A stretch of 64,000 nucleotides of DNA from Diplonema papillatum (lineage: Eukaryota; Euglenozoa; Diplonemea; Diplonemida; Diplonemidae). The DNA is taken from positions 248,001 to 312,000 of the forward strand of contig JAPJBO010000034.1 in NCBI GenBank assembly GCA_030068145.1, given 5' to 3'. The position numbers and the translations under genes were made by a program. Under the pieces are notes generated by a model. That model did no database searches. It saw nothing but the letters and a program-made list of their open reading frames with translations, and had not been told where the DNA came from. Positions 9,166 through 64,000 of the stretch are shown here, one piece after another; within the stretch, counting starts at the first letter, position 1, and each line of letters starts with the position of its first letter.

Positions 9166-9189
9166 CTCGCGAAGACCATCGAAACGGCG

Positions 9190-21147: not shown

Positions 21148-21960
21148 ATGGATCCCCGTGCAAGAGAGCCGGAGAAGCCGGACGGGGACGAAATCGGCGC
21201 CCTCGCCGCGCGGCACGTTCGGGAAGCGACGGCCCGCAAGGGAGTCGCCGCTGTGTACGCGTGCGTCGTCGGCAGCCGGATCAAGGGGCTGAGCTCCGCC
21301 AGCAGCGACATCGACGTCCGCGTCGTGGCCAAGCGCTCCTTTTCGCAGTACGTCACCCTCGACAACCCCGCATTCGAGGAGCTGCGGTGGTCCGTTGAAG
21401 ACAGCGGGTGCACCTTCGAGTACAACACGTGGGACCTCAAGCGATTCCTCACCCTCGTGCGCGCCGGGAACACGGACGCTGTGGATGCGTTGCGGTCTCC
21501 TTGGGTGGTGCTCGACGAATCCGGGTTTAAAGAGGCGGTTTGGTCCCTTGCGAGACCAGGGCTGCCCTTAAAGAGCTACGCCGCCGGCCTCGCTTCCAAC
21601 GCCGAGTACAACTGGCGGACCTACTGCCTAGCGTCGGAGGTCGACCACCGGCACTACCTCTACACGCTGTCGTCCCTGCTGGGGCTGGTGTGCATGCGGG
21701 ATATGGGGGAGTTGCCGCCATTTGCGTTCGCGGACCGTGTGGCGGCCGCGGTCACGGACCCGGTTCTCTTCGAGGAGATCATGGGCATCGTCTTCCGCAA
21801 GCGGGACGGAGCGGCGGGGGCCGGCCGCGTCCGGTCCGTCGACGCGTTCCTTGCCGCCATGCTCCCAGTCAATCGTGAGGCACTCGACGGGGTGGCCGCC
21901 AGCCCTGAGTCTGTTCTCGCGTTTGACCGACTCTACCGTGAAATCATCATGCAGCCCTGA
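21148..21960 (+). CDS. RlaP/YcgL-type predicted nucleotidyltransferase (PF10127-like)
   Basis: A 270-residue single-exon protein; ATG 21148 (MDPRAREPEKPDGDE) is preferred to 21004 because coding bias begins there. Residues 42-58 carry the polymerase-beta-type nucleotidyltransferase signature GSRIKGLSSASSDIDVR with both metal-binding aspartates (D54, D56). Further on come a FEYNTWDLKRFLTLVRAGNT block and SPWVVLDES, the arrangement of the RlaP family (DNA polymerase beta superfamily, associated with RNA ligases in bacteria and phages). The family is mainly prokaryotic and viral; its substrate is not established. No RNA ligase gene lies in this window. Codon use is like the neighbouring genes, so any transfer is old enough to be ameliorated. 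The CDS is followed by two degenerate tandem copies of its 3' region. Confidence 0.75.
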   Translation: MDPRAREPEKPDGDEIGALAARHVREATARKGVAAVYACVVGSRIKGLSSASSDIDVRVVAKRSFSQYVTLDNPAFEELRWSVEDSGCTFEYNTWDLKRFLTLVRAGNTDAVDALRSPWVVLDESGFKEAVWSLARPGLPLKSYAAGLASNAEYNWRTYCLASEVDHRHYLYTLSSLLGLVCMRDMGELPPFAFADRVAAAVTDPVLFEEIMGIVFRKRDGAAGAGRVRSVDAFLAAMLPVNREALDGVAASPESVLAFDRLYREIIMQP

Positions 21961-26934: not shown

Positions 26935-27824
26935 AGCCGTGCGGGCAAGAATGCGCTGACTAACAAACCATATTCCACCTGCCTTCTCCCGGCGTTCTTG
27001 CGCGCCGAGCGTCGGCAAGAAAGACGCGCAAGCCGGGGGATTAGCCACAGCAAAAAATATTGAACAGCCGCCCTCAGGCAGCACAGGAGCACGCAAGCTC
27101 CAAAGCAACGTTCCAGGGACTGGTCAACGCAAAGGGCGCAGCTGGTTCTGCAGAAAGCAGGAAGGGCGCCGCGTCGTCACCTTGACCAATTATTATTCAG
27201 CCCAATCGCACAACCAAACAGTGACCTGAACTGCGCAAGCCTTCCGCAAGACGTTCACTTGAGACTTCTCGCTCTCCTACCCAGCCCTCGTCTTCTTGAG
27301 TAGCACCAGCACTCGATGCCAATCTTTCATTGTTCCTCTCCCCTTTCCCGAAGGCACATTCTCACACTAGTAGTCGCCACAATTGACCTTTGGCGTTCCG
27401 TTGCTTTTTTCTGATTCGCGGCCGTACCTCCATTGGCGCCTCTTCGGGCATCTACGCATGCGGAAACGATCATCCGCGCACTGGCTGAAAGATGCCTGCT
27501 GTTTAGCTCAGTCCCCACCCCCATCCACATCGCTGTTTGCAGACACTGATGATGGGTTCCCTCCTAACTTGTCTGTGGCTTGAGTTTAAACAGTGCAGAT
27601 AGGGTACGGGTTTTAGCACATGCCGTTCTAAGCACGTCCTTGCATTCCACTAGCTCAAAATGTGCCCTAACGAGCGACCTGAGCTGCACGCAAGAGGGTT
27701 TTCGTGCGGCATCCTCATGACATGCATCAAAGGCGATTTTGGGGTTTTGGCTCACATCCGGGAAACGCGGTGACACTTTTGTAGATTGCCGGGGGGTGGG
27801 GTAAGGGAAGAGCGGGCAGTCATC
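26935..27824. other. intergenic stretch
   Basis: No gene, repeat family or RNA gene recognised. It presumably contains the 3' UTR of the preceding gene and the ALG6 promoter. Confidence 0.4.
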
Positions 27825-30397
27825 ATGGGCAGGAGAGCAGGCGAGGTGCGGAATTGGCGGGTCATCGTGGCGCTGCTCGTGGTGGCCATGGGGATTCGGT
27901 CCCTGACGATCATGCACCCCCACAGCGGCGAAGGGAAGCCCCCGATGCACGGCGACTTCGAGGCGCAGCGCCACTGGATGGAGATCACCACCGCGCTGCC
28001 CCTGCGGGAGTGGTACAGGGACGGACCGGAGAACGACCTGCAGTACTGGGGGCTCGACTACCCGCCGCTCACAGCGTATCACTCGTATCTGATAGGCGCC
28101 GTCGGCCACAAGACGATACCAGAGGCCTTCGCCCTGCACTCCAGCAGAGGATACGAGAGTTACTCGCTCAAAGTGTTCATGAAGCTCTCCGTTATATTTT
28201 CCGAGCTTCTGGTCTACTTCCCCGGGGCGTACTACGCGGTCACTGGGGTCGCCCACGTGAAGCTCGAGCACAACCGGCACCAGTGGATCGCGCTGGCGAT
28301 GCTGTGGCTGCACCCGGGCGTCCTGCTGATCGACCACGGGCACTTCCAGTACAACGCCGTGTGCCTCGGCCTCACGCTCTTCGCGATCGGCGCCGTCGCA
28401 CGGCACAAGTGGTGGCTGGGGAGCGTGTTCTTCGTGCTCGCGGTCTTCTTCAAGCAGATCGCCCTGTACTACGCGCCGGCGTTCTTCTTCGGCATCCTCG
28501 CGCTCTGCCTGCAGAGCCGGGGCGGTGTCGGCAACGTGCTGGCGACGGGGGTGGTCGTCGTCGCGGCGACCGCCGTGGTTTTCAGCCCGTGGATCATCGA
28601 GCAGGACTGGGACGGGATCCTGCAGGTTGCCCACCGGATGTTCCCCTTTTCGCGCGGGTTGTACGAAGACAAGGTGGCCAACGTGTGGTGCTCTGTGTCA
28701 CCCGTGCTGAAGTTGAACAGACTGTTCGAACGAGAAGTCGTGTTGCGGATATCGGCGGGGTGCACGTTTTTGTCCCTCCTGCCCGGTTGCCTGTGCTGCT
28801 TCCGGCGAAAATACGGCAACGGCACGTGGGTGGCCGCGGTCGTCATCAGCGCGACCTCTTTCTTCCTGTTCTCGTTCCAGGTGCACGAGAAGTCGATCCT
28901 GTTCCCGGCTGTGGCCGCGGTGCTGCTGCCGGTCGCGAGTCCGCCGGGCGTTGCGATGAACCTCACGCGGGCGGTCGCGATCATCACGTACGTGGCGCTC
29001 TTCTCGATGTACCCGCTCGTCGTGAAGGACGGAACGCACGTCCTGTACGTGTGCCTGTCCCTCGTCACCATCGTCTTCGTCGAATTCGCCTGCGCGACGA
29101 CTCCGGTGTGGAGGCGCGGCTGGCGCTGCGTGCTCCTGTCCACGACCGCCGTTCACTTAGTCCACTTCACGTTCTCCCCGCCGTCTAGCCACCCAGACCT
29201 GTGGACCATGCTTTTCTGTTGGGTGAGGTATATCTAAACCTATTTCCTTTTTGTATAAGCACCTGCTTTGTAGGAAATACTTGAGGAGACTGCCAGTTGC
29301 GAAATCTCGGATTTCGCAACTGGGAACTCGGAAGGAGGTAGTGTGGTACCCTTCAGCATGCTGATGACTCCCCACTATCGCAACAATATTCCAAATCTCA
29401 AAGAATTTAAATGTGCTGGAAACACAGGTAAATCTGGGTTTAGTGGCGGGTGTAAACGTTCAACAAATGCATGCAAATGCAACGTGTTCAAAAAAACGCA
29501 GTGTGTCACCGGTTAACTTTTAACGCCTGCGCTCGAGATCCCCCACACGAGTGCAAACCAGGTGAAAAGGGGACGCAGTATCTGCTGGTATGCTCAGCAT
29601 GCACCAGCTGATAGGTAGCGTGTCAAGGTACATGACGAGGGGACGCAGTATCTGCTGGTAAACAATCATAACTGCTAGCAGTATCAGCCGCTACTCAGAC
29701 TGTCCAGGACAGGGGAGAAAGGGACTCACAACTCCAACCATCTACTCCGAAGGATGAACTCCCTCTTCTTGTATAAGCACCTGCTTTGTAGGAGCTGCTC
29801 AAGGAGACTGCCAGTTGCGATAGATCAAAGGAGGTAAATCTGGGTTTAGTGGCGGGTGTAAACGTTCAACAAATGCATGCAAATGCAACGTGTTCAAAAA
29901 AACGCAGTGTGTCACCGGTTAACTTCTAACGCCTGTGCTCGAGATCCCCCACACGAGTGCAAACCAGGTGAAAAGGAAGCGGCAGACTCATTCGACACCC
30001 CCCCTGTCCCTTGCACTTGATTTCAGTGACCATCGATTCAAAAGCCACGGCTCTTGTCTCACTTTTCTTGCGGAGCACATCCGATACGCCTGTCGGGCTA
30101 GCTGGCAGTTGCTGTCAAGGTCCTTGCAAGCGGGCAGCAGCAAAGCAACGGGCGATTTTTTCTCACCCTGTCCTCTGCTGTTTTCCGTCGGTCATGTGCA
30201 GCACCCTGTCAGTTTCCGCTTCCCCTCTGTTGACTGCTCGTCGGGGTAAAAATATGTGCGGGTTTGCTCTCCTTTCCGAAAATGGACACCCACACACACT
30301 ACACAGCTGCTTTTATTTCATCGCCGCCGCGGCCGCGCTGACAATCTGTCAATACAACTGTTTCTACGACTTGAAGTACAGCAGCAAGGTCGAGTGA
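27825..30397 (+). CDS. ALG6: dolichyl-P-Glc:Man9GlcNAc2-PP-dolichol alpha-1,3-glucosyltransferase
   Basis: Exon 1 is 27825-29227 and the proposed exon 2 is 30307-30397; together they give 497 residues, the usual ALG6 size. ALG6 (GT57 family) adds the first glucose to the lipid-linked oligosaccharide in the ER lumen. Visible signatures are HGDFEAQRHWMEIT (42-55, with D44 matching the catalytic Asp of the family), LQYWGLDYPPLTAYHS, LIDHGHFQYNAVCLG and FFKQIALYYAP, plus about ten hydrophobic membrane segments. The unspliced frame stops at 29237 right after HPDLWTMLFCW, short of the last membrane helix. AG|GTATAT at 29227/29228 and CACTACACAG at 30306 join in phase 2 to give a final helix, CFYFIAAAAALTICQYN, and a Lys-containing cytosolic tail. 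The start at 27825 is preferred to 27786 by context. Exon 2 is inferred. Confidence 0.85.
29251..29465 (+). mobile_element. ~215-bp dispersed element, copy 5 (interrupted)
   Basis: The first 50 bases and the GTGGCGGGTGTAAACGTTCA portion are present. They are separated by about 100 foreign bases that begin with a perfect small hairpin (29293-29323, 14-base arms around TCG, made from CCAGTTGCGAAATC). The 3' third of the element is missing. Confidence 0.75.
29431..29975 (+). repeat. direct duplication flanking copies 5 and 6
   Basis: The block AAATCTGGGTTTAGTGGCGG through CGAGTGCAAACCAGGTGAAA occurs at about 29430-29571 and again at 29836-29975, nearly identical, with an offset of 406. Between the copies GGACGCAGTATCTGCTGGTA occurs twice (29571 and 29640 regions). 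The whole unit, including the element's 5' part, was duplicated in tandem. Confidence 0.8.
29769..29872 (+). mobile_element. ~215-bp dispersed element, copy 6 (5' part)
   Basis: It starts TTGTATAAGCACCTGCTTTG, keeps GATCAAAGGAGGTAAATCTG, lacks the CACACGAAACACAG block and runs into the duplicated tail. It belongs to the same local duplication as copy 5. Confidence 0.75.
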
Positions 30398-32863: not shown

Positions 32864-35731
32864 ATGTTGTTACTCCGAGTCCTTGCGACTGCCCTCGCCA
32901 CGGGGAGCCTCGCCACCGCAGCAAAGCCAATCAACGGGAACCCGCACGTCGAGCGGATTGGGACGGACATGAGAGTGGTCCCGGAGGTCGAGAGCGGGAA
33001 GGAGTGCTCGGCGCTCTGCCTGGACGAGGCCAGGTGCGAAGGGTGGACGTGGTACAGCTGCGAGAAGCAGTGCAAGCTGATGCGGAAGAGCAAAGCGCGC
33101 AAGTGGAGCAGCGGAGCGTGCGCGGGGGAGAGCGGCACCGCGCAGCAGCTGGGCAGCGACCGACTGTACAAGACCGTCCCCCTCGGCTGGACGGCGGCGA
33201 CTGGATGGTTGCTGGCCCAATTGAAGATCGAAGCCGACGGGCAACTCTCACGCTTGAACCAACTCAAACCCGACCTAGCAGATGACGCCGCGTGGGTCGA
33301 CGATACACAGGATGACACCGTCAACATACCCGACGAAACAGGGCCCTACTGGCTCAACGGACTCGTGCCTAGCGCTGCCTTGCTAAACGCGTCCGCCCTG
33401 CTACCCGAGCATGTTTTCTCGGGTATCCTGGACGAAGACGTGGAGAACGGGAATCCGGTGACCAAGAAGCTGCTGTCGGCCTTGATGCCGACGCAGCGGC
33501 TCGCCGAAAAAGTGAGCGCCGTGGTCGAGAAGCGCGTCTGGCGCATCATCTCGGACGACCTCCCGAGCAGCCTGCGCGGACCGGCCGACGGCTTCTGCGG
33601 GGCGGGCGACGACTTCAAGTACGGCTGGCACCTGGCCGCGGCCCTGCTGCAGTACGCGGACGCCCACGCCGGCGACGAGGCGGCGGCGGCGAGCCAGGCC
33701 GCCGTCGTGCAGTTCATCGGCGAGATGTACGTCCGCGCGTTGGAGCTGCCGCTCGACGTGTGGTCGTCGCTGCGGTACCAGGACCTCGTGTACCTCGCGC
33801 AGACGGCGTACGACCAGAATCCGATGGGGCAGGAGCAGTTGCTGGTCGACTTCATGCGGCTCGTGAACGCGCGCGGGTTCGAGTGGGACGATCACTACTC
33901 CGGGCACAGCGTTAGGGAGTCATTCTTCCCCATGGTGCCCAACAGCACCTGGGCAAGAACAGACGACGGCGTCACCCACGCAATGGCGACCAAAGCCGAG
34001 GCCGTCGCCGCTCGTTTGCAGGACCGCACGGTGAGAGCAACCGTGTTCGAAACGCAGCTCGCCATGCAGCACCAGTACCACGGACAGCCGTACGGCACCT
34101 TCGCCGCTGCCGAAGGGTCGCTGGGCGGGCGGAACCTGACCCGCGGCGTCGACGTGTGCGCCGCCGTGGAACAGATGCACTCGCTCGACGTTTCCTTCCA
34201 CCAGTTCGGCGACGTGCACATCCTCGACAAGGCCGAGCGCATTGCTTTCAACGCGCTGCCAGGCTCCCTGACGCCCGACCTGTGGCAGCACCAGTACCTC
34301 GCGCACGCGAGCGATCGAATGTCGAAATACCTCGGCAAGCCCAACCTCGCGAAAATGCACGGAGCGACGGTGAAGCCGGCTACGGTTGAAAGCTGTACGG
34401 ATCACCCGCAGGGTGTGCCCATCTTCGCGAAGAACGTCGTGCTCACGTTTGACTCGCATGGGCTCGCGGGGCTCGCGGTCGGTATGTTCGCCCCCGTGGA
34501 CACGACCATTCGGGCGGGCGCGCTGGACGGGACGCGGGTCGAAATCAAGACCGACTACCCGTTCGGCGATACCGTCGGCATCAACGTCACCGTCCCCGAA
34601 ACCGTGCCGATGCTGCCCTTCCGCGTCCGGATCCCCGGCTGGGCGGACCGGGCGACGCTCGTCGTCGTCAACGGGACCTCGTCGGACGCGAAGAACGGCA
34701 CTATGTGCGAAGTGACGCTCACGCCCGGAACGACCGAGCTCGTCCTCGAGCTCCGCCCGGAAGTCCGGGTTGAGTTCGGCTGGGGCGCCGGCGACGCGAA
34801 CGCGGCCGCGGTGGTGCGGGGCCCGCTGCTCTTTAGCCACGGGCTCGACGACCAGGACGGCGTGTGGGCGCCGTTCAACAACTCGAACACCAACGTCACG
34901 TACAACGCGACGTGGAACTACGCCCTGTCCATCGACCCGCGCGACGCGGCGTCCAGCTTCAGCGTCGTGCACGGAGAAACCGCGCAGACGACCCCCTTCA
35001 ACAACCCTGGGTACCCCGTGTACATCCAAGCGAAGGCCCGGCTGATGCCCCGATGGGTCCCCAAAATGGCGTTCTGGGGCAAGCGAAAAGTCTTCCAAAT
35101 CGTCGAGCCGCCGCGCTCCCCGTCGTTCTGCTCGGATCCCGAGGCCTGCGGAGCCGAGGTCAACGTCACCCTCGTTCCGTTCGGCGCGACGGACCTGCGG
35201 GTGTCGGCGTTCCCGTGGATCTGCGACGCACCTGCAGCGAGCTGCTTCGAGAACGCCGCCGGCTCCAGGGACACCAAACTGGTCGTCGATTACGGCGGGG
35301 TGATGTACGGGGACGGGACGTCGCCCCACCGCAACGCGCACAACATGCTGCTGCGCTCCGGCCGGCCGAAAATGGAGACCAACATCACCGTCTCGCAGAT
35401 GATCTTCGACCCGACCCGGAAGCTTTCCTCCCTGTCGGTGTCTTACCAGTACCAAACCTCGTCCAAGCTCACGAGCACCAAGCCCGCGGGCACGGTCATG
35501 AAGATCGGGCTGGTGAACGCGATGACCAACGAATTCATCCTCGCGTACGAGTCGCCGCCTCTGACCGACTACCTGTATAACTTCAATGGCACGTACTCCC
35601 CCCCTGTCACCGTTACTGCCGCTCTCGACCTCGCCGTCACGCAGCCGCATCAGATCCGATTCCGGTTCTTCAACAACGGCAAAAACGTCAACCTGCTGAC
35701 GCCGCTGACCTTCCATCTCAAGTGGGACTGA
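32864..35731 (+). CDS. secreted PAN/apple + GH127-like protein, altered metal site (paralogue 1)
   Basis: A single-exon protein of 955 residues. It begins with a signal peptide (MLLLRVLATALATGSLATAA), then a PAN/apple-like Cys module (about 25-85, six cysteines, GWTWYSC). From about 100 it follows the GH127 (DUF1680) plan: LGWTAATGWLLAQLKIEADG, GPYWLNGLVP, QDLVYLAQTAYDQNP, GGRNLTRG, LTPDLWQHQYL and a beta-sandwich C-terminal half. GH127 enzymes such as HypBA1 are beta-L-arabinofuranosidases with a Glu and three Cys holding zinc, one Cys being the nucleophile. Here the Glu-x-Cys motif reads D430-V-C432 and the Cys-Cys pair reads S510-C511, with several residues missing before it; E458 of AERIAF is kept. 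Paralogue 2 has the intact set. It may be a binding protein or a changed enzyme. Several sequons support secretion and N-glycosylation. Confidence 0.85.
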   Translation: MLLLRVLATALATGSLATAAKPINGNPHVERIGTDMRVVPEVESGKECSALCLDEARCEGWTWYSCEKQCKLMRKSKARKWSSGACAGESGTAQQLGSDRLYKTVPLGWTAATGWLLAQLKIEADGQLSRLNQLKPDLADDAAWVDDTQDDTVNIPDETGPYWLNGLVPSAALLNASALLPEHVFSGILDEDVENGNPVTKKLLSALMPTQRLAEKVSAVVEKRVWRIISDDLPSSLRGPADGFCGAGDDFKYGWHLAAALLQYADAHAGDEAAAASQAAVVQFIGEMYVRALELPLDVWSSLRYQDLVYLAQTAYDQNPMGQEQLLVDFMRLVNARGFEWDDHYSGHSVRESFFPMVPNSTWARTDDGVTHAMATKAEAVAARLQDRTVRATVFETQLAMQHQYHGQPYGTFAAAEGSLGGRNLTRGVDVCAAVEQMHSLDVSFHQFGDVHILDKAERIAFNALPGSLTPDLWQHQYLAHASDRMSKYLGKPNLAKMHGATVKPATVESCTDHPQGVPIFAKNVVLTFDSHGLAGLAVGMFAPVDTTIRAGALDGTRVEIKTDYPFGDTVGINVTVPETVPMLPFRVRIPGWADRATLVVVNGTSSDAKNGTMCEVTLTPGTTELVLELRPEVRVEFGWGAGDANAAAVVRGPLLFSHGLDDQDGVWAPFNNSNTNVTYNATWNYALSIDPRDAASSFSVVHGETAQTTPFNNPGYPVYIQAKARLMPRWVPKMAFWGKRKVFQIVEPPRSPSFCSDPEACGAEVNVTLVPFGATDLRVSAFPWICDAPAASCFENAAGSRDTKLVVDYGGVMYGDGTSPHRNAHNMLLRSGRPKMETNITVSQMIFDPTRKLSSLSVSYQYQTSSKLTSTKPAGTVMKIGLVNAMTNEFILAYESPPLTDYLYNFNGTYSPPVTVTAALDLAVTQPHQIRFRFFNNGKNVNLLTPLTFHLKWD

Positions 35732-36107
35732 ATCTCGAACATTAAGTCGGCTTCCACCCCTCCATGATGCTGATAGATCCCGTAGCATGACTTTTGACGA
35801 ACCTGCAAAGAGTCTCGGAAAAAAATGTATCGTGTCTCGCAACTCACCTCGATGTAGCGTTGATCGTCGTGTTCGAACCGTGATACATCGCACCTGTAAC
35901 CAACAAGCAGAGGGATTGCGTAAACATATTGAGAAAGTCGAAGATTAGCGTCGAAACTTTCTTTTCACGCCGTAGCAGAACGACCACACCCTACCCAATC
36001 CCAAACACCCCCTAAACGCGTTAGGGGACTTCACAAGGTTTCACAACGGAGTGACACATCACCCGAAACGAGCTGCACCCTCTCACTTTTCTCGATCCAC
36101 TCAACCC

Positions 36108-36165
36108 GACCCCCTCCATACCCAAGCCTCTACAGGGCAACCGGGCTTTAAAATACCGATAGAGA
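36108..36165 (+). repeat. second copy of the AT-rich island repeat
   Basis: CCATACCCAAGCCTCTAC and the following CAACCGG...CTTTAAAATACCGA match 8556-8606. The reading frame seen at 8443-8802 is not preserved here. Confidence 0.6.
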
Positions 36166-37129
36166 AAGGTGTGACTGACATTCTGTGGTCCTGCTGGGCT
36201 CGGGCTCGTATGGCGTGCCGTCGTCATGAAACCCAACCTCTCCTGGAGTCGGTTCGGTCCTGCCATGCTTTTGCTCCAGTTCCTACAGTAAACGTCTGAG
36301 AAATAGGGAGGTAGGTGTAGGTGGACTGGCTCAATTACGTTCCAAATACACGTTCGCTAGGGAACGAGCATCTGTGCAATTTCGCGCAGAACGCGAAGGA
36401 GCACCGCGCCTTTTCCGTGCTGGGGAAGGCATGCAATACGCAGACAGCGCTGTCGTCGGACAAGCGGATACCCTGATTTTAGTCAGGGAACACGAAGTTA
36501 ATAGAGCCACAAAGAAGCACGACCTCAAGCAGTTTCGCAAACCAAAAGGAAAGAATGAAACAAAATAATTCCGACGGTAGCACACGACAAAGCTCTGCTG
36601 CCGATTTTCCTCCAGCTCCGATGCAAGGGTCGGCGATGCGCCTACGTTCCAATATGTGCTAGGTTGGGGTGGCCGGCTACATTGGACGAGCACATTTTTA
36701 CACAAATCTTCCCAGAACTTCCAAAGACTTCCCAGAAACTCCCAGAATTTCGTTCTCTTTGACGATATTTCGCGTTTTTACGTCTTCTTGTTTGCGTTAG
36801 GGGAGCCATTTTGCAAGCAAATGAGTACCACGCTATGCAAACGTACCCAAGGGCGACTGGTGATTTCATGTGAAAGATTTCATGTGAAAGACATGTCACC
36901 AACGCAACAAGAAGACGAAATACATGGGATTTTTCGAGACTGGAGGTCCTATGAACATGCAATGTGAAAAGCCTCTATTCGACCCAACCCGGCTTTTCTT
37001 CATGAAAAAAGTGTATTGTTTTTGGAAACAGCTGAGCTAGCTTTTTCTTTTCCTCGCAAAAGGTATAGCCTGCTGCTCGAGTATTTCCCATAAAGCAGGT
37101 GTGAATTCAAAAGAAAAGCTGCGCATTTC

Positions 37130-37320
37130 TTGTAGAAGCACCTGCTTTGTAGGAAATACTTGAGGAGGCTGCCAGCTGCAAAAGATCAAAGGAGGTAAAT
37201 GTGCTGTAGCCCACACGAAACACAGGTGAATCGGGGTTCAGTGGCGGGCGTAAGCGTTCAACAAAAAAGACGTGTACTGTTTCTCCCCCTCTAGCCTCCT
37301 TCGAAGTAAGCACAAGTATT
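37130..37320 (+). mobile_element. ~215-bp dispersed element, copy 7
   Basis: A nearly full copy that lacks about 20 bases after CAACAAAAAAGA and the last TIR part. Just upstream (37076-37100) lies a short reversed end fragment (CTCGAGTATTTCCCATAAAG), so two ends are juxtaposed. Confidence 0.8.
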
Positions 37321-37732
37321 TGGTGAAGTTGTCTAGAATCTGCGACTCAACTATTCTCACGTCCTGAACTGAAATCCTGCTCAAAGAACATACATATACG
37401 CACGCTCGAAGCCTCTGTCCGGGCGAAGCGATCTCATTCATTTTTTGTCTTCAAGCCTCACGCCTGTGCGGAAATCAATGGAGTCAAGTGTTAGTGCAAA
37501 AAACTGTTGGCACAAAACGTATCGGGGACCCATCGCGCCGCCCGGGGGTGCTCGTAACATGAACGAAACTGGCACGCGAAGAACCGGCGCAAAAACCCGG
37601 CCCATCGTAAGTAACAACAAGACCACCCGAGGTCTCCGTGTACATGCGTAATCGCAAACGCTTCAGAGAGCTCTCGCAAGAAGTACTGCGGAGGGGCATT
37701 CTTTTGGCCCCCTCCGAGTGGTTTCTTTTTTT

Positions 37733-37985
37733 TGAATAAGCACCCGCTTTTTACGGATCTCGAGGATGCTGCCAGTTGCGAATTACTTATATGGTGGCTC
37801 ATTGCGCGCAGATGACCCAACAAAAGAGCCAACGTACACGGGAGGAAATGCAACGGCAGCCGCACGAAACACAGGTAAATCTGGGATCGGTGCCGTACCT
37901 TTGTCGTTGGATTGTTTCCCGTTTCACATTTCCACCCCCTCCCCTCGAGCCCCCGTCGATCACCGGGCGGTGCCTCTGAATATTT
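37733..37985 (+). mobile_element. ~215-bp dispersed element, copy 8 (degenerate)
   Basis: Recognisable by AATAAGCACCCGCTTT, GAGGATGCTGCCAGTTGCGA, CACGAAACACAGGTAAATCTGG and a CCTCTGAATATTTTTGCC end. The middle is strongly diverged. Confidence 0.5.
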
Positions 37986-40900
37986 TTGCCAGAGGAATCC
38001 TGGTCGGTGGGGCGACACAAACGTTTCACCTTTTGAATCAGATCACCGTGCTCCGTGTGGCCGCGAACGTTCTCCCATCTCTCTCACCCAGTCGAACCCT
38101 CATCTGTCCACGGCGCAAGGAGCACACCAGGGAGCGCTGCGGGGTAAGCGAACCGAGCCAGCAGGAAGAAGGAATCCAGGACATTCTGGGCCCTCGCAAA
38201 GACACATCGATGCCGTATCGAAAAGACTCGTTTTCGTATTTGCGTGGGTTGTTCAAAACTTCAGAACATGACGTGAGCGGCATAGAGAGTAGACAACTCT
38301 ATGGCACCATAAAGTCCAGAAAATCCATGGTAAAGAAAGAACCCCCAAATTATTCCGTCACTAGAAGGCATGAAAAGACGCTGCAAGTAAACAAAATGTT
38401 GTCGACAACGAAAAGCAAAATAATAAACCAAAACTACGCAGTTCTTCTCCCGGCAACGTGAACAGGTGCTCTTTCAGCTACTACGCCATGCGAGCTCTTG
38501 CCAGCAGCGCGCTACACCGCCGTACGAGGCTTCACCAGGCAGATTTTCTAGCGACGGTCCACCGTAGGTTCCTCTGCTCTGTCGATCACGTCAGGGTCAT
38601 TGATACGTGGTCGTGTCCTGCTGCTTGTTACTAACAGGCCAAAAAGCTCACACTACCAGGCCTCCACGGTTCTATGACCGTTTTTTTTTTTTTTTGTCGT
38701 ATAAGACGCTAGTCTAAGAAGATTAATATTAACCGACTAATGATATACTGTGAAACAGGGCCTCTCGCTCCATCACACAACCGCTCACGCTCTTGCAAAG
38801 AAACTTGTTTCTTTGAAGACTAATAATAATCCGAACGACAGGTTTGCCGCTCCCAATCCGTCCAGAGAAACAAAGTAGCTTGCTTCTGTAATCTTGCTGC
38901 ACCACTTCATGTGGTCAGCAGCAAGATTAACAGCTTTCTGACTTCACCTTTTGCTCCAACTATACGGCGCGCGGCAAGGAGAGCAGGAGCGGAGGACGAG
39001 AGTGACAGACACAAGCATAGGAGTGAGGATTTTATTATTTTGATACACCGAAGAGAAACAGCATCGAGGTATCTGGCTGGAAGAAAACAGATGCTCTCAG
39101 TGGATTCGGTCGGTTGGGCTAACGAACCGCTGGCCTGCCTCTGCCATGACATGTGGGGTCCACAACTAGGTGGCTACGCAGCCAGATTGTGTTTCTAACA
39201 CACCACGCACTGCCCCGCTGAAAACGCGTCCAATATTCGAGTTCAGGGCAGCGCGGTCAACGGCGAACTGTGATTCTCGACCCGTTCTTATCCTTTTCTC
39301 GCGGTGTACGATGGTCACCACAGCTGAAGAGGGTGTGTGTAAAGCTCCTGGATATTTTGGCGGCCGACGCTACATCTATCCAGATACCCAACCATGATCT
39401 CGATTTGGCGCCGCCAGAGGTTTGCCTATCTGTAGAAGCACGCCTTCCCGCCTGGTATGCTGCGATATTTTTGAGGGGGGAAAAAGCAGCCATGCGGGAT
39501 AAATAATCCGATTTGCGAGGTCCTTTAACTCGCTCTGACAAGCAACACCAACAGGTTCTTTTTCGCCATTCTTTTTCTAGAGTATTTCTTGTTCTCCTTC
39601 TTTTAGAGATGTTGAAAGACAGCTTTCAACGGCAATGCCCACGGGAAATAGTTGACTGGACGTCTCAGGTTCGTGCTCCACGCAAAGGAGGACCGATCTC
39701 CCTCTTTCGTGAGAAAAAGCAACAGCAGGGCTTTGCCAAAGCGTTTGCGGGCAAGAAGAAATCCAGTTACCCGAACCCACGCGCCGGCTCCAAATACCCG
39801 GAGTTCTCACTCGCATTTTTTCGCATTCAAAACACGCCCTTTTCTTGTTTTTTTGTGTTAACAAATTTGTGCAACAAGTCAATGCATTGTTGACTAGTCG
39901 TTGGCACTGTACGTGTAACTTGCGTACTACATGAAACTCACCAAAGCAGGCGAGTTCCGCCAGTGCGCAAACAAAACGTCTCAACTTTGCAGCTTGCAAC
40001 ACAAGTGCCGCAAGGTTAGTTGGTCTTTGCCACGTGCCGAAGCTGGCATTGGTGATATTCAACTTCCAGTGTAGAGAGCGTCGCCAGCAACTGAGCCTCC
40101 TTAGTGCTTGAAGCATTCGGATAGTGTTCCGTTTGCCCCCGTCCACTCCGGTGAATAGACACTTGTTTCATTCTCTCCGTGTGCATTCCCCACGGGAGAG
40201 CAATCCGTCAGAAGGACGGCCCGGTGACCGACTTCACAGAGCTTCTGCGCGAGTGGCTCAGAGCATCTGTGTGAAGGAGAGTTTCACCATAGAAAACGTT
40301 CCGCTTTTTCTTCTTCTTTTTTTACAAAAGCGCCAGCGTGGATGGAAATGCTCGACGAAGCTGCCAGACAAAAAACGTGTTCAACGGACGTGAGGTCATG
40401 CGGGTCTACCCCCACGACAAGACATACAAACAGGTCAAAGTCCTAAGTTAGTGAGAAAACGGCACACGGTGGAACAAATCAGATTGTGTTTGTATTTCCC
40501 CCTCTATTTAGATGCTCTATTTCCCCCCTTCCATTCGGAGTCAAAGCAGCTACGTCGAGTATTTTCCCCTCCACGCCGACGGTCTCGGCGCCTTGCAAAC
40601 GACCTCGAATCCGGTTAATTATCTGGATGCGCGCGTCGAATGCGTTTTTCCCGCTTGTTGCAGAAGTTTCCCTTCCCGGTCGGAACCGCCGAAAGAAATA
40701 CAGCACGCAACACGAACGACTGCTCTGTAGTCAACCTCCGTATTCGCACTCGTTTTACTGCCTTTTTTTTTGCTGAAGCTGACGCTTGTTCAGCCTCGGA
40801 GGAAAAGCCGTCGAAAAAGGATCCAACTCAGGCGTCACCGTGTGGTGCTTCGTGAAGTCCAGCGAGAGGCACGACGTAGGTTCAGCTTTCAGCAAACCCT

Positions 40901-41254
40901 TTGCAATAGAGAGAGGTTACTTGCACCCGAAGTCTTGTGACGAGGCAGGTTGTGTGATCCGAGGACCTTCACCTCAGCCTGAAGCCGTCGTTGAATTGTC
41001 GATCGCAAATGACAAAAAAAGGACACTGCATGCTCCAGACTCCATTGATTCTCTAATACGTGGCCGTCGCAGCACTTCGACGACTCTGGCCAAAGTGGCG
41101 CACCATCTACTACTGCAGTTGCCCTGGGCGCAGCTGCGCGAATTTTCAGCATAAAACGAACCTCCAAACCACAACAAACGCTATCAAAAAGGAACTGCGC
41201 GAAAAAGAAACAAAGGGAGGGAATCGCGTTTGTTGCGCGAGAGAGAGAGGGAAG

Positions 41255-44122
41255 ATGCTTTTGGTCTCGATGACCGTGCTGTCGGCGTGCGTCGCCGCCG
41301 GCAGGCCGCTGCGGGGGAACCCGCACGTCGAGAGGGTCGGGAACGCGTTCCGGACGGAGCGGGTGGGCGGTGGTGAAGACTGCTCTGCGCTGTGCGCGCG
41401 CGACGGCCGGTGCGAGAGCTGGTCGTGGCGGCGGTGCGACGGGAAGTGCAGCCTGATGGCCTCCAGCGCGGTCCGGGCGTGGGCCGCCGGCGGATGCACG
41501 GGCGAGAGCGGCACCGCCGCTCAGCTCGCCTCCGCGCCGCAGTACACGACGGTGCCGCTGGGCTGGACGGCTGCGACGGGCTGGCTCCTCAACCAGTTAA
41601 AGATCCAAGCCGACGGCCAGGCCGGGCACTTGGACCTCTTCTGGCCCGACGTCATGGACTCTGTCTGGGTCGGCGGCACAGAAGACCACGCCGGCGCGGG
41701 CCACGAGCGGGGCCCTTACTGGCTCAACGGGATGGTTCCCTGCGTCGCGTTCTTGAACGCGTCCGCGGCCGTCGAGGAGCCGCAAGCCGCCGAGTACCTG
41801 CTGCAAGGCCTGCCCGCCAAGCTCCCCCACGGCACGCACACTACCGCCAAGCGCCTGCACGCGGCTTCGAAGAGGGCCTCCGTGCTCGCCGAGAGCGTCA
41901 GCGACCAGGTCGAGAAATACGTGTGGTACGTCGTCGACCACCAGCTCCCGAACGGCTGGCTCGGCCCGGACGACGGCTTCGGCGGCGCCGGGAACGACTA
42001 CTGGAGCGGCTGGAACATGGCCGTCTCCCTCCTCCAGTACGCCGACGCCCACTCCGGCACCGCGGTCGCCGAGGCGTGCCAGACGTCGGTGTTCCGGTAC
42101 CTGAACGTCACGTACTCCCGCATGCTGACCACCCCCCTGCAATCGTGGTCGCAGGTCCGGTACCAGGACCTCGTGTACATCGCCCAAATGCTCTACGACC
42201 AGAACCCGCTGGGCCAAGAGCAGGTCCTCGTCGACCTCATGAGCCTTGCCACGGAGCAAGGCTGGTCGTGGAACGACTACTTCAACGGGTACGGGAGGGT
42301 CACCAAGTTCTACCCGCTGATGCCCAACACGGACTGGAACCTGTTTGACCACGGGGTCAACAACGCGATGGGCACCAAAGCGGGAGCCGTCGGCGTGCGT
42401 CTCGGGGAAGGAGGCCGTGTGAACCAGTCCGACTTCGAGAACATGCTGCACATGCAGATGAAGTACCACGGCCAGCCCCACGGCGTGTTCTCTGCGGACG
42501 AATGCTACGGCGGGAGAAACCTGACCCGTGGGATTGAGCTCTGCGCGGTGGTGGAACAGATGTACTCACTCGAAGTGTCCTTCCACCAGTTCGGGGACGT
42601 TAAGATCCTCGACCTGGCGGAGCGCATCAGCTTCAACGCGCTGCCGGCGACTCTGACACCGGACATGTGGCAGCATCAGTACCTCCAGCAGGCGAACGAA
42701 ATCCTGGCCGCTTACTCCGTGACCCCCCACGTTTGGTGGACGGACGGCGACGACTCGACCGGCTTCGGCGTCGAGCCCAACTTCGGGTGCTGCACCGCGA
42801 ACCACCCGCAGGGATGGCCGAAGTTCGCGAACAACGTGCTTTTGATGTACACCAGCACCGACGGCCTGCCGGGCATCGCCCTCGCTATGTACGGCCCCGT
42901 CTCCTCGACGATGAAGGCCGGGCCGCTGTCGGGCACGCAGGTCAACGTGGTTACCGAGTACCCTTTCGGTGACAACGTCAACGTGACGGTGACGGTGCCG
43001 GGGAACGTGCAAAGCATGCCGTTCCGGGTGCGGGTGCCGGGCTGGGCGACCAGCGCCGTGCTGAAGGTCAACGGCGCTGTGCAGCCGGCGAAGGCGGGGA
43101 CGATGAATGAGTTCGTGCTGAAGCCGGGGGTGACCAAGTTCGACCTGGAGCTCAACCCCGAGATCCGCGTCGAGATGGGCTGGGGCCACGGCACCACGAA
43201 CGCGGCGTCGGTCGTGCGGGGCCCGCTGCTGTTCAGTCACGGGCTCGAGGAGCGGACCTCCGTCGTGAAGGTCTGGGCGCCGTTCAACAACACCAACGTC
43301 AACATCACGAGCGACTCCGTGTGGAACCACGCCCTGTCTTTCGACCCGCTGAACGTCGCGGCCAGCTTCTCCTTCCACAGGCCCGGAACGCCGGGGGCGC
43401 TGCCGTTCAACATCTCGGGGTACCCCGTGTACATCACCGCCAAGGTCGTCTTGCTCCCCAGCTGGATGAAGCGACCCGATGTCATGGGCGCCGCCGACGA
43501 GCCGGCCGCGTCCCCGATCTTCTGCAAAGGCAACGAATGCGGTGCTGAGTTCGAGATGAACCTCGTCCCGTACGGCGCGACCGACCTCCGCATCGCGGCG
43601 TTCCCGTGGGTGTGCACGTCGGCGAACGCTCTTTCGTGCTTCCAGGGAGAGCACGTGAGCTCGAAGGACACGATGCTGACTGTCGATTACGGCTCGGTGG
43701 ACTACGGCCCTTTCACGTCGAACCTTCTGGGCAACGACACGATGCTTTTCAGGACCGGTGACCCGGGCCAGAAAACTATGATCACCGTGGCGCCGATGAT
43801 CATGGACGCGAACAAGACACTGGACGCGATCACCATCGCGTACTCGTACCAGACCGGGTACCCAGGGAGCTCGCCGGGGGCAAGCTTCGTCGTGAGCCTC
43901 GTCAACATCCTCACGAACGCCACCACCGTCGCGTACACGTCGCCGGTCCTGACGGACTACCCGTACAAAATCGGCGGGGAATTCTCCCCGCTCGTGAAGT
44001 CGACCGCCCAGATCAACCTCGCCGTCACGCAGCCCCACCGAATCGTGTTCCACTTCGACAACGGCGGCCGGAACTTGAACATCATGACCCCCGTCTTCTT
44101 CGAGATGGGGTGGAGTTCCTAG
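41255..44122 (+). CDS. secreted PAN/apple + GH127 glycosidase (paralogue 2)
   Basis: A 955-residue single-exon protein, exactly the length of paralogue 1. The frame is open from 41060, but ATG 41255 starts a signal peptide (MLLVSMTVLSACVAAG) right at the onset of coding bias. A PAN/apple-like module follows (about 20-80; CESWSWRRC), then the GH127 domain with LGWTAATGWLLNQLKIQADG, GPYWLNGMVP, DLVYIAQMLYDQNPLGQEQ and LTPDMWQHQYLQQ. The metal/nucleophile set is intact: E428-L-C430 and C512-C513 in NFGCCTANHPQGWPKF, with E456 in LAERISF at the family's usual spacing. The likely reaction is hydrolysis of terminal beta-L-arabinofuranosyl or a related sugar from extracellular glycans or glycoproteins; the exact substrate is unknown. 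It probably arose with 32864-35731 by tandem duplication. Confidence 0.9.
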   Translation: MLLVSMTVLSACVAAGRPLRGNPHVERVGNAFRTERVGGGEDCSALCARDGRCESWSWRRCDGKCSLMASSAVRAWAAGGCTGESGTAAQLASAPQYTTVPLGWTAATGWLLNQLKIQADGQAGHLDLFWPDVMDSVWVGGTEDHAGAGHERGPYWLNGMVPCVAFLNASAAVEEPQAAEYLLQGLPAKLPHGTHTTAKRLHAASKRASVLAESVSDQVEKYVWYVVDHQLPNGWLGPDDGFGGAGNDYWSGWNMAVSLLQYADAHSGTAVAEACQTSVFRYLNVTYSRMLTTPLQSWSQVRYQDLVYIAQMLYDQNPLGQEQVLVDLMSLATEQGWSWNDYFNGYGRVTKFYPLMPNTDWNLFDHGVNNAMGTKAGAVGVRLGEGGRVNQSDFENMLHMQMKYHGQPHGVFSADECYGGRNLTRGIELCAVVEQMYSLEVSFHQFGDVKILDLAERISFNALPATLTPDMWQHQYLQQANEILAAYSVTPHVWWTDGDDSTGFGVEPNFGCCTANHPQGWPKFANNVLLMYTSTDGLPGIALAMYGPVSSTMKAGPLSGTQVNVVTEYPFGDNVNVTVTVPGNVQSMPFRVRVPGWATSAVLKVNGAVQPAKAGTMNEFVLKPGVTKFDLELNPEIRVEMGWGHGTTNAASVVRGPLLFSHGLEERTSVVKVWAPFNNTNVNITSDSVWNHALSFDPLNVAASFSFHRPGTPGALPFNISGYPVYITAKVVLLPSWMKRPDVMGAADEPAASPIFCKGNECGAEFEMNLVPYGATDLRIAAFPWVCTSANALSCFQGEHVSSKDTMLTVDYGSVDYGPFTSNLLGNDTMLFRTGDPGQKTMITVAPMIMDANKTLDAITIAYSYQTGYPGSSPGASFVVSLVNILTNATTVAYTSPVLTDYPYKIGGEFSPLVKSTAQINLAVTQPHRIVFHFDNGGRNLNIMTPVFFEMGWSS

Positions 44123-44220
44123 GGGCGGACAGGAACCGTCAACCAGCCAGCGCATTTCCTAATACGACGAGGGTGCGCGATCAGGGATTATCCTGCATGG
44201 TTAAAAAGATTTCTTCACCA

Positions 44221-44466
44221 AAAAATACTCGAGGGGCTGCCTTGTGCTTACTTCGAAGGAGGCTAGAGGGGGAGAAACAATACAACTACAAAGTGGGTTT
44301 CTTTTGTTGAACGCTTACGCCCGCCACTAAACCCAGATTCACCTGTGTTTTCGTGTGGGCTACAGCACATTTACCTCCTTTGATCTATCGCAGCTGGCAG
44401 CCTCCTAGTATTTCCTACACAAGCAGGTGCTTATACAAAAAAAAAGGCAGTCCCTCGAGTATTTTT
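44221..44466 (-). mobile_element. ~215-bp dispersed element, copy 9 plus end fragment
   Basis: A full reversed copy (44221-44440) is followed at once by a + oriented end fragment, GGCAGTCCCTCGAGTATTTT (44446-44465). The right ends of two copies therefore meet across a short A run, as if one copy inserted into or rearranged with another. Confidence 0.8.
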
Positions 44467-44962: not shown

Positions 44963-45173
44963 TTGTATAAGCATCTGTTTTGCAGGAAATGCTTGAGGAG
45001 ACTGCCAGTGGCGATAGATCAAAGGAGGTAAATGTGCTGTACACGAAACACAGGTAAATCTGGGTTTAGTGGCGGCCGTAAGCGTTCAACAAAAAAGACC
45101 CACTTTGAAGTTGTTTTGTTTTCTCCCCCTAGCCTCCTTCGAAATGAGCACAAGGCAGTCCGTCGAGTATTTT
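44963..45173 (+). mobile_element. ~215-bp dispersed element, copy 10
   Basis: A nearly full + copy with small deletions (CTGTAGCCCACACG shortened to CTGTACACG). It ends CGTCGAGTATTTT. Confidence 0.8.
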
Positions 45174-46455
45174 CCGATGCGGAAGGCTGCGAGGAAAGCA
45201 TTGGCACGTGCCCTCCAGGGCTGTCACACCAGCGAGTCCGCAGATGAAAGCCGAAGGGCTGTGCAGGTGCAACCCTACCTTGCAAGTGGTTATTTCGTGG
45301 TATTCGCTCAACCTGTTTTCCCTTTTTAAGGTCAGGAAGCAGGGGTTCAAGAGAAAGAGACCCGAACCGAGATCAGAGGCAACTCAACAGGAAGCAACGC
45401 AAAGGGTGATGCCGCAGGCTAAACCCGAAACCCCTCGTGGAAAACGTGCGAGTCACGACTGAGCGGTTGCCGGCTACCTGACTGCTGCTGTCTGACTCGT
45501 TGTGTTTAGTTCGACGCACTCACGCTGAGTACCAAGCACGAATCACTAGGAGTTTCACCGCCCTCATTTCTCCTTTTGTCATGTTGCAGCCGGGTCGAAA
45601 TCATGTGAGCTGTCCTTCGATCGGGACAGGAATGACTGTGACGGCTGTGCCCTTTCCTGAGAGAGAGAGCGCCATCGAAGAACGTTCTCAGGCTTGCAGC
45701 AAGATTAGCCGGTACTGCCGGTCTGGATTGGCTGCAGCACTCGGACGGCATAGTGGACCCATAGCTCAGGGTCCCTGGATTATTACTCGTCTCTTCTCTT
45801 TTTGCTCTCTCTCCGAAAGGTCAACCCGGTAGCGATGCCTTTAGCATACACAGCAGGTGGGACGAGGGCCCCGGACTGCTAAGGCGTAGCAACCCTTTGC
45901 TTACTTGTTTTATTTGTGGTTTCTCGCAGTCCCTTCTCCTTGTTCACTTTCTTCCGTTTTTTCGTCGTCTTTTTCTCCTGTCAGCGCTCAGGTCAGCCTC
46001 GTCAGGCGACCGCAGGCCAGCCATTTGCCCGCTACCATTCGCTCCATTCTCTATCGAAAGCGTTTGTCCTGTTCCCACCAGCCAGTACCGTTCTACTCCA
46101 GATTCTTCGGGCTGATGCCAAGCTGGAGTCCAACTCGGGAGAGTGACATTTCTGAAAACGACCCACTTTCTCGTCTTTGTTGAGAACCGTGTTCGTGGCT
46201 AGCGCTCGATTCGCAGAACACGGCGCACGCATTATTACCCTCGGGATCCGTTAAGACTATATTTTTGAATGGGAGTCGGGTACGTTCCCCTGCGACACTA
46301 GTCGTCCTCACCTAGCAAGCTATCTCGAGCGCCTTCTTCCGTTTCTGGGTGAACTCTTCATAATATTATCCACTTCGTCAAGCGAGTAGGGAAACACAGG
46401 CTCCACCTTTTGCCCCTTTTTGTACCCCCCGTTCGAGACGATCAGACTCCCATCG

Positions 46456-46898: not shown

Positions 46899-48806
46899 CA
46901 TACTTCGCAGTCGGTCAGACCGACTCGGACCGGTTTTTTCCGTACTTTTTTCCGAGTCAGAAAAAAGTCAGACGGCCGTCTGACTCGGACCGAGTCACGA
47001 AAAAAGTACGAAAAAAGTACGAAAAAAGTCAGACGAGCCGTGCGTTGATTTTTGTGGGGTATTTCCGGTTGTTTTTCTGCGTTCACTTGGGTGATAAACG
47101 AAGAGGCGACCGGCGCAGTGCACATCCATTGCGCTGTTCTCATCCAGAGTCCACATCCCAGTGGGTGCCACAGAACTCTTGGCACCGGATGGGCTGAAAC
47201 CTCGAGAAAGTGAATAGGAAAACCCCGGGCAATGTGACTGGAACGGACTGAAACTCGAGAAAGGTACTGGGGGTCTCGAGCCCGCTTCTACAACTTTTTC
47301 CGCTACATTCCCCGTCGCCGGTTTGGGAGCACGGCCGAAGTGGCAGCGTAGCACCTCTCCAAAAGAGAAGGAACCAGCAAAAATAAGCAGAGATTGCAGA
47401 CACCAACGCGCACGTATGGGAATAGGTTTTCCAAACCGGTCACAGAAGGCTGCGTACAAGGGATTGATCCCTCGTAAGCTTGTTTCGCAGTGGTTCAGGC
47501 GACCTCCGCCACCGGTGTGCGCTATCGGTTCCCTGAGAAGGCGCCAGCCTATTTTGAGCAGAGTTCGTTAAGCACCGAGAGAAAGTGAATAGGAAAACCC
47601 CGGGCAATGTGACTGGAACGGACTGAAACTCGAGAAAGGTACTGGGGGTCTCGAGCCCGCTTCTACAACTTTTTCCGCTACATTTCCCGTCGCCGGTTTG
47701 GGAGCACGGCCGAAGTGGCAGCGTAGCACCTCTCCAAAAGAGAAGGAACCAGCAAAAGTAAGCAGAGATTGCAGACACCAACGCGCACGTATGGGAAAAG
47801 GTTTTCCAAACCGGTCACAGAAGGCTGCGTACAAGGGATTGATCCCTCGTAAGCTTGTTTCGCAGTGGTTCAGGCGACCTCCGCCACCGGTGTGCGCTAT
47901 CGGTTCCCTGGGAAGGCGCCAGCCTATTTTGAGCAGAGTTCGTTAAGCACCACCCACCGATGACGCTCTGACTCTGAGTCTGGGGGGCGTCGCTCAGTGC
48001 CGTCGAGTCCGGAGCTCTGCAATGAGTAGTAAATTCGTGATGCGAGCTGCTACAGCGGGCTTAAAAGCTCAGTGCACCGCTTATGTCACGCCGCAACTTC
48101 GACCCATGTACGTAGTGAATAGTTGTGGTTGCACACTCAGCCCCGCGAGAGACACACTGGATCCACAACGAATACCCACAAACCCAGTGAGCTGTCTACC
48201 GCCCGAAGGCTGTAGTGCAGCTTGTTCAATAACACGGGAATGGTACAGCGGTGCTGGGCGCTGTCCCCTCGCGGTTTCGTGTCGTCGCGCGGTAACTCCG
48301 TGCCTCGAGAGGTGGGTATCCGCCGTGCACGTCCCCAAAGGCGACCACTGTAAAACGAGTGGTCGACCAGTGGTTGACGGCAGGCTCTACACGCGACACT
48401 ACACGGGAATTTGTTCGGTGCTCACCATTAGGAACCGTCTACCCCCCACGACCTATTTGCTGCATGTGTGGCGGAAACTTGTGCTCCATCGTTTTCGACA
48501 AACTCTCAACGTTCTTTGGCTTAGTTCGCCAGAGTTCGCCAAGTTTCGCCAACACTCATGTATCTTTGGCGAGCTCGCCGGCGAACCCTGGCGAACCTTC
48601 ACACAGCCCAGGACCAGGAATACCCAACGGAAATCCCGTCTGACTTTTTCCGTACTTTCTTCTGACTCGGTCCGAGTCAGACGGCCGTCTGATTATTTTC
48701 GTACCTTTTCAAAGAGTACGAAGAAAGTACGAGAAAAGTACGAAAAAAGTCAGACAGGCGGCGGACCCCGGAAATCTCGTCTGAGTCAGACCGACTGCGA
48801 AGTATG
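46899..48806. mobile_element. ~1.9-kb element bounded by inverted repeats
   Basis: CATACTTCGCAGTCGGTC at 46899-46916 is matched exactly by its reverse complement at 48789-48806. Inward from both ends lie related blocks rich in AAAAAAGTACG and GACTCGG, and each contains the palindrome GTCAGACGGCCGTCTGA (46967-46983 and 48676-48692). The interior holds the period-375 tandem duplication and, near 48520-48600, clustered TTCGCCA words. Its one long frame (48022-48888) runs through the right end and shows no transposase motif. A non-autonomous DNA transposon with long subterminal repeats fits; target duplication is unclear. Confidence 0.65.
47204..47950 (+). repeat. tandem duplication, period 375
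   Basis: Two adjacent copies (47204-47578 and 47579-about 47950) begin GAGAAAGTGAATAGGAAAAC and end GAGTTCGTTAAGCACC, with only a handful of differences. The near identity indicates a recent event. Shared frames on both strands are a by-product. Confidence 0.92.
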
Positions 48807-51310: not shown

Positions 51311-51800
51311 TCCCCCGTAGACTCGGCGGAAACAGAAAAAAGCTCGGTTCCAAACAGCACCTGCCCAGTTTGCTGAAAACAAGCGCAGAATTGGAAGAAC
51401 GATCCGTTGTACCGGTGGCTGTATTCCGTCATTGGTCAAAGCATCAGATAGTAGACTTTCTTCCGCGTAGGCTCGGCGGAAACAGAAAGAAGCTCGGTTC
51501 CAAACAGCTCCTGCCCAGTTTGCTGAAAACAAGCGCAGAATTGGAAGAATGATCCGTTGTACCGGTGGCTGTATTCCGTCATCGGAGTCTTCCACCAAAG
51601 CATCAGAGTAGTAGACTTTCTTCCGCCGCCCCCCCGTAGGCTCGGCGGAAACAGAAAAAAGCTCGGTTCCAAACAGCTCCTGCCCAGTTTGCTGAAAGCA
51701 AGCGCAGAATTGGAAGAACGATCCGTTGTACCGGTGGCTGTATTCCGTCACCGGAGTCTTCCACCAAAGCATCAGCGTAGTAGACTTTCTTCCGCCGCAG
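51311..51800 (+). repeat. three-copy tandem array of ~150-169 bases
   Basis: Units start with GTAGRCTCGGCGGAAACAGA at about 51317, 51467 and 51636. Each contains CTGCCCAGTTTGCTGAAA, GCAGAATTGGAAGAA and CCGGTGGCTGTATTCCGTCA. Units 2 and 3 add GAGTCTTCCACCAAAGCATC, which explains the longer period. The frames seen on both strands are due to the repetition and not to a gene. Confidence 0.9.
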
Positions 51801-52569
51801 GTCTCAACTTTGTGCAGCATATTGCGGGGGCTTGCGGTCCTTGAGCCATCTATCGGGGGGAGCATGTGATACACTGCCATAAAAGGTCCTCCCAGCCCGA
51901 ATGGCGCGAGCAGAAAATAACAGTAGGCCTCTTCCGGCGCTTCGAAGGTTTGCGTGAACACGCACTGCCAGACCGCAACCTTAGTGCAAACTAGCGGAAC
52001 TGACATTTTCCTTCGGTAAGTTGTAGCACGCCGCCAACTACTTATTTCTGGGTACCAACAATGCTTTGCACGCCGACAGCTACCTATTTCTTGGTACGAA
52101 CAATGCTTTGACAACACAACAACACACAAAAACAACAGCAACATAGATTTTTCTCTTCCCCGATCGATAGACTTCTAGCTAGCATCCATTCCTTATCCGC
52201 AGCGCCCGCGTTGTCCTTTTTTCGGTTTCTCCTTTGTCTCGGAGCAAACCCGAGATATTGCACGTGCATGAGTGGATATGCGAAGGAAAACATGCAAAGA
52301 ATCGCACGCCCAAAAACGAAGCGTCTCCGACAAATGCAACCGGGCATGATGACGATGCAGCGCGCTCATCAACGAGGAGAGGGCCTCGCGCCCTCTTCAG
52401 AGACACAAGTGAGGTCAAGTATTACACATTCTCGCGTCCACCAAAGTTACTCAGACCGACCCCACCCAACGCAGGAAATACCACACTCCGAAGACACCAA
52501 AAAAAAAAAAAAAACTTTAAAAGCCGAGGAGTCGACGACGGCAGCGCCTTCGCAGGGGCGCCCCGGCTG

Positions 52570-63378: not shown

Positions 63379-64000
<622 letters not shown>

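Follow-up and report, generated by a model that had tools for sequence, protein, structure and literature searches.

The stretch of DNA examined here, referred to below as the window, comprises 64,000 nucleotides of Diplonema papillatum (assembly GCA_030068145.1, contig JAPJBO010000034.1, positions 248,001 to 312,000 of the forward strand) and carries two paralogous genes, P1 and P2, whose products combine a PAN module with the fold of glycoside hydrolase family 127 (GH127). P1 is an open frame of 955 codons (32864-35731, +) with zero internal stops, the other five frames of the same stretch containing 6 to 38. P2 likewise encodes 955 residues when read from the ATG at 41255, the mechanically derived frame from the GTG at 41060 placing 65 extra residues before the hydrophobic N-terminus, so that the equal length and open frames reported in a first-pass annotation stand. 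The two proteins are 51% identical across 973 alignment columns, and the genes lie on one strand with a gap of 5.5 kb. A third PAN-GH127 copy in the window was not found by tblastn (best other match E 0.13), and in this sense the pair is correctly called tandem. Co-duplication of the flanks was not seen; outside the coding match, blastn detected dispersed repeats only, which are situated at unequal distances from P1 and P2. One dispersed repeat, with direct and inverted copies that are 76 to 98% alike, occurs at 29251-29976, 37130-37271, 44211-44406 and 44963-45184, thus between and behind the two genes, with two copies facing each other near 44.2-45.2 kb, and is possibly a small mobile element.

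The order of modules is the same in both proteins: a hydrophobic start that resembles a signal peptide when judged by eye, a PAN module, a GH127 barrel, a beta half that extends to about residue 784, and a C-terminal region of about 170 residues. From the N-terminal stretch, both proteins would be expected to be secreted. The features are as follows.

32864..35731 (+): P1, PAN and GH127-fold protein of 955 residues, catalytic site lost (putative pseudoglycosidase)
32960..33100 (+): P1 PAN_1 module, residues 33-79 (24.5 bits, cut-off 21.4; 29.2 bits for residues 1-104 alone; low predicted local distance difference test score, pLDDT)
33155..34441 (+): P1 GH127 barrel, about residues 98-526 (alignments, structure model, fold match)
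33965..33967 (+): P1 D368, corresponding to P2 H366; His in 80/80 relatives (alignment)
34112..34114 (+): P1 E417, kept, likely acid/base Glu; the preceding Asp is A416, with one residue inserted after A416
34151..34153 (+): P1 D430, in the zinc-ligand Glu column (HypBA1 E338; alignment)
34157..34159 (+): P1 C432, kept, in the zinc-ligand Cys column (HypBA1 C340; alignment)
34391..34396 (+): P1 S510-C511, where the family has Cys-Cys (HypBA1 C417-C418; alignment)
34475..34696 (+): P1 GH127 middle domain, residues 538-611 (24.5 bits, cut-off 24.2)
35222..35728 (+): P1 C-terminal region, about residues 787-955, without Pfam match and absent from 82 bacterial relatives
41255..44122 (+): P2, PAN and GH127 protein of 955 residues, catalytic set intact (putative active cysteine glycosidase)
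41345..41470 (+): P2 PAN module, residues 31-72 (PAN_1 24.2 bits for residues 1-99 alone, cut-off 21.4)
41531..42844 (+): P2 GH127 barrel, about residues 93-530 (alignments, model, fold match)
42500..42502 (+): P2 E416, likely acid/base (HypBA1 E322; alignment, profile match)
42536..42544 (+): P2 E428-x-C430, zinc ligands (alignment)
42788..42793 (+): P2 C512-C513, nucleophile and zinc ligand (alignment)
42875..43087 (+): P2 GH127 middle domain (PF20736), residues 541-611 (32.1 bits, cut-off 24.2)
43607..44119 (+): P2 C-terminal region, about residues 785-955, without Pfam match and mostly strands in the model

The PAN/apple core is described as containing four to six cysteines (PMC9249922), and each protein has six that pair one to one (P1 C48, 52, 58, 66, 70, 86 with P2 C43, 47, 53, 61, 65, 81). 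When the whole of P2 is scanned, its PAN_1 match reaches 19.5 bits, which is under the cut-off of 21.4. The remark that a PAN module ahead of GH127 is an uncommon combination is in line with these results, the module being recognised by Pfam and a literature search having found no mention of GH127 together with a PAN domain. The barrel of P2 scores 19.2 bits with GH127_cat (PF07944), below the curated Pfam cut-off of 24.9, and a phmmer search of the Protein Data Bank (PDB) with P2 returned no GH127 entry and two micronemal PAN proteins (E 0.14 and 0.58, not significant); unlike P2 alone, a profile of bacterial relatives did reach a GH127 entry. The predicted folds of both proteins consist of the GH127 barrel and beta sandwich. 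For the C-terminal 170 residues or so, a Pfam scan gave nothing up to E 10 in either protein, and both models are strand-rich there, with conserved cysteines near the start, so that an unnamed domain is possible.

The comparison is based on 82 bacterial relatives, 2 from phage-collection records and 80 from genome contigs. The latter are the 80 highest-scoring of 584 against P2, so the set as a whole is not a random sample of GH127. Of the two patterns used in the genome scan, one included a portion of the metal motif in a form that accepts E or D ([ED][LV]C...) and the other did not, and more divergent GH127 proteins that have no Cys pair could exist beyond the sampled relatives. Identity to P2 is 30 to 38% over residues of about 93-784. 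All 82 stop no more than 47 residues (median 4) from P2 position 784, so the C-terminal region is not common to them. Pfam detected no PAN module in the 4 relatives in which >100 residues precede the match, the longest N-terminal extensions of the set, the check covering these and L003 from its trimmed start. Scans of viral contigs with P2 yielded 0 patterns, those with a P2-first family alignment 44 pattern matches and those with P1 and P2 together 171, and none of these encoded a relative.

In HypBA1, the GH127 beta-L-arabinofuranosidase of Bifidobacterium longum (3wkw, 7dif), the zinc site is reported to consist of three cysteines and one glutamate (E338, C340, C417 and C418), with C417 as the nucleophile, and E322 and E338, which are 4.9 Å apart, were first taken for a two-carboxylate pair (PMC10728902). 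The first-pass annotation had assigned P2 E428, C430, C512 and C513 to the zinc and nucleophile sites of GH127. In the phmmer alignment of L002 with 3wkw, as well as in the family alignments, these residues fall on HypBA1 E338, C340, C417 and C418, so that the assignment survives the alignment check by which it could have been refuted. The Cys pair is visible in 5/5 printed PDB sequences aligned to L002, and Glu-x-Cys in all 4 whose stretch covers that site. Together with D415, E416 and E434 (P2 numbering), the four residues occupy columns that are invariant over the 82 relatives, and the same columns were obtained when the family alignment was redone with MAFFT using 80 relatives and either P1 or P2 first. 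Thus P2 possesses all the zinc ligands and the cysteine nucleophile of the family, and it appears equipped for the chemistry of a retaining cysteine glycosidase, its activity being putative.

P1 does not possess this set. As noted in the first reading, it has D430, C432, S510 and C511, with only C511 left for the pair. The exact column of S510 is uncertain, as MAFFT sets E509/S510 on P2 C512/C513 and a slide of one residue gives S510/C511; under either placement P1 has one Cys where 82/82 relatives have two, and the dipeptide CC occurs nowhere in P1. The segment between a conserved Tyr (P2 476, P1 478) and His (P2 517, P1 514) is 5 residues shorter in P1, and the model has pLDDT <50 at 494-508. 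C432, E436 and E417 are retained, and D415 of P2 corresponds to A416. E458 is also kept, as had been stated, in a column that is Glu in 79/80 relatives; the acid/base is more likely E417 in P1 and E416 in P2, because the profile match to 4qjy assigns this role to the Glu that precedes the Pro of the PND motif by 9 residues, a spacing shared with HypBA1 E322, although a weaker alignment of single sequences moves the assignment by two residues. Since either the nucleophile or a zinc ligand is lost, the Glu is replaced by the shorter Asp, and further losses surround the pocket, GH127 chemistry is unlikely in P1.

The changes in P1 had been described as conservative and as located exactly at the metal, with everything else maintained, and this description does not hold. 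Conservation in at least 90% of the relatives defines 143 columns, of which 115 are kept by P2 and 88 by P1, individual relatives keeping 112 to 143. When changes are polarised with the relatives, 31 columns are altered in P1 alone, 4 in P2 alone and 24 in both. The barrel (P2 93-530) accounts for 29 of the losses in P1 only and for 3 in P2 only, with 58 columns kept by both; the P1 losses include H366 to D, N369 to T, D415 to A, N481 to S and W521 to V (P2 numbering). In the beta half (531-784) the corresponding numbers are 2, 1 and 25, so that P1 retains 25 of the 27 conserved columns that P2 keeps, and for this half the claim of maintenance is sound. The contrast between barrel and beta half (29:58 against 2:25) gives a Fisher p of 0.007, which is a guide since columns are not independent. 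Columns of lower conservation show a weak asymmetry (14 vs 6, p 0.058; 19 vs 9, p 0.044). P1 scores below P2 against 82/82 relatives, and in a FastTree tree of the shared region its branch is 0.79 compared with 0.18 for P2, which corresponds to evolution about 4 times faster. An assembly or sequencing error as the source of the changes in P1 was ruled out, the 31 conserved positions being spread along the barrel in an unbroken frame.

The most economical explanation is that P1 has a binding role, because fold, beta half and PAN module are kept. A eukaryotic PAN-GH127 gene would have been duplicated in tandem, after which P2 would have kept the ancestral role of a secreted retaining glycosidase, with zinc on E428, C430 and C513 tuning the nucleophile C512 and with E416 as acid/base. 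P1 would have lost the zinc site, the nucleophile and much of the conserved barrel surface, and selection would maintain it as a binder of either a glycan or P2 itself, in the wall or the extracellular matrix. We consider it probable that P1 is such a secreted pseudoglycosidase, kept for binding, and that P2 represents the ancestral enzyme; the activity of P2, the inactivity of P1, and the binding by P1 and its target are all inferred from sequence. The earlier suggestion of a non-catalytic or altered protein derived from an active sister agrees with this as far as an intact paralogue has lost its catalytic site next to a P2 that keeps it. That such a derivation turned a zinc glycosidase with a cysteine nucleophile into a secreted, metal-free lectin or regulator, carrying a PAN module and beta half and paired with its active sister in the wall or matrix, is a more specific proposal that we regard as doubtful.

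Several observations weigh against this interpretation, at least in its simple form. The losses in P2 amount to 28 of the 143 conserved columns, which together with its GH127_cat score below the Pfam cut-off makes its activity less than certain. The 24 columns lost in both proteins imply that the eukaryotic pair had already diverged from the bacterial family before the duplication. The P1 model relies on an alignment of active relatives, an input that favours the family fold, and the persistence of E417, D430, C432 and C511 makes an altered catalytic or metal site conceivable. An active P1 with changed chemistry and another substrate could use E417 and D430 as a carboxylate pair, in the manner once proposed for HypBA1 (PMC10728902), or C511 as a nucleophile without the full zinc site. 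With 29 conserved barrel positions gone in P1 alone, and with the nucleophile segment both shortened and poorly predicted, this is improbable. P1 might instead work in a heteromer with P2, as an obligate subunit without catalysis or as an inhibitor, and not as an independent glycan binder. This would fit two adjacent genes that agree in architecture and length, and inactive GH28 paralogues of beetles are reported to function in the same pathway as the active ones (PMC6549527). This alternative, which we judge improbable as a separate case, overlaps with the binding role preferred above, where the target stays either a glycan or P2.

It is also improbable that P1 is a gene in early decay, still uninterrupted, whose changes reflect relaxed drift. 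The longer branch and the larger number of losses at each level of conservation tested would fit such decay, but without constraint, divergence to 51% identity should have interrupted a frame of 955 codons. Moreover, the GC content at third codon positions is 0.87 in P1 (0.91 in P2), against 0.49 to 0.64 for total GC in 2-kb windows of the region, and the six PAN cysteines, the near-complete beta half and the concentration of losses in the barrel also speak against decay. The Nei-Gojobori ratio of nonsynonymous to synonymous divergence (dN/dS) between P1 and P2 is 0.49 (dN 0.44, dS 0.89), with similar values for the PAN, barrel, beta and C-terminal parts (dN 0.40 to 0.56, dS 0.69 to 1.00). This ratio argues against long neutrality, with the reservation that it averages both lineages and that dS approaches saturation and reflects codon bias; part of the low value for P1 may date from before the loss. 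Because the alignment procedure can yield nothing but whole-codon gaps, gaps were given no weight. By sequence, P1 corresponds to a putative pseudoenzyme, a maintained paralogue in which conserved catalytic residues are lost.

The window is taken as eukaryotic because it encodes an ALG6/ALG8 glucosyltransferase (27786-29237, Pfam E 1.8e-117), PPR repeats (9013-9813) and, at 52234-53583 (+), an inositol polyphosphate kinase frame that looks as if cut by an intron. The kinase match stops at 53 of 190 profile positions, in mid-domain, which together with frames further on suggests that introns are present in this genome, though P1 and P2 have none. Searches of the window with Rfam (gathering threshold) and ARAGORN gave no matches. 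A 318-residue frame at 21004-21960 (+) matches RlaP (PF10127, E 9.3e-29), a nucleotidyltransferase of an RNA repair pathway, within this eukaryotic window. Other repeats are a 375-base unit in two head-to-tail copies that are 98% alike (47204-47951), a 169-base unit repeated three times in tandem (51312-51798), and a perfect (CT)100 run (63381-63580).

The cysteine glycosidases of GH127 and GH146 have been studied mainly from gut bacteria. HypBA1 is about 14% identical in structural alignment and has neither the PAN module nor the C-terminal extension of P1 and P2; compared with it, P1 is without the Glu and one Cys. The bacterial relatives resemble P2 in their invariant catalytic columns and differ in having no C-terminal region. 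By their published description, the DagA exo-alpha-1,3-(3,6-anhydro)-D-galactosidases of Zobellia galactanivorans belong to the same family as P2, and GH127 members are reported to act on algal galactans as 3,6-anhydro-D-galactosidases as well as on beta-L-arabinofuranosides (PMC5698469). Inactive glycoside hydrolase paralogues are already known as a kind: the GH28 pseudoenzymes of leaf beetles likewise occur beside active paralogues in a secreted family and function in the same pathway, and they differ from P1 in fold and family and in that their function was tested by RNA interference (PMC6549527). In a literature search for GH127 together with a pseudoenzyme term, none of the matches listed contained both. 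The PAN fusion, combined with a C-terminal region that has no recognised fold, is a set of modules for which the literature search on GH127 and PAN domains found no description. P1 is a candidate source of a new carbohydrate-binding protein, and the pair P1/P2, of which one member has the complete zinc-cysteine site and the other has lost it, provides a natural experiment for separating the parts of the fold needed in catalysis from those involved in binding.
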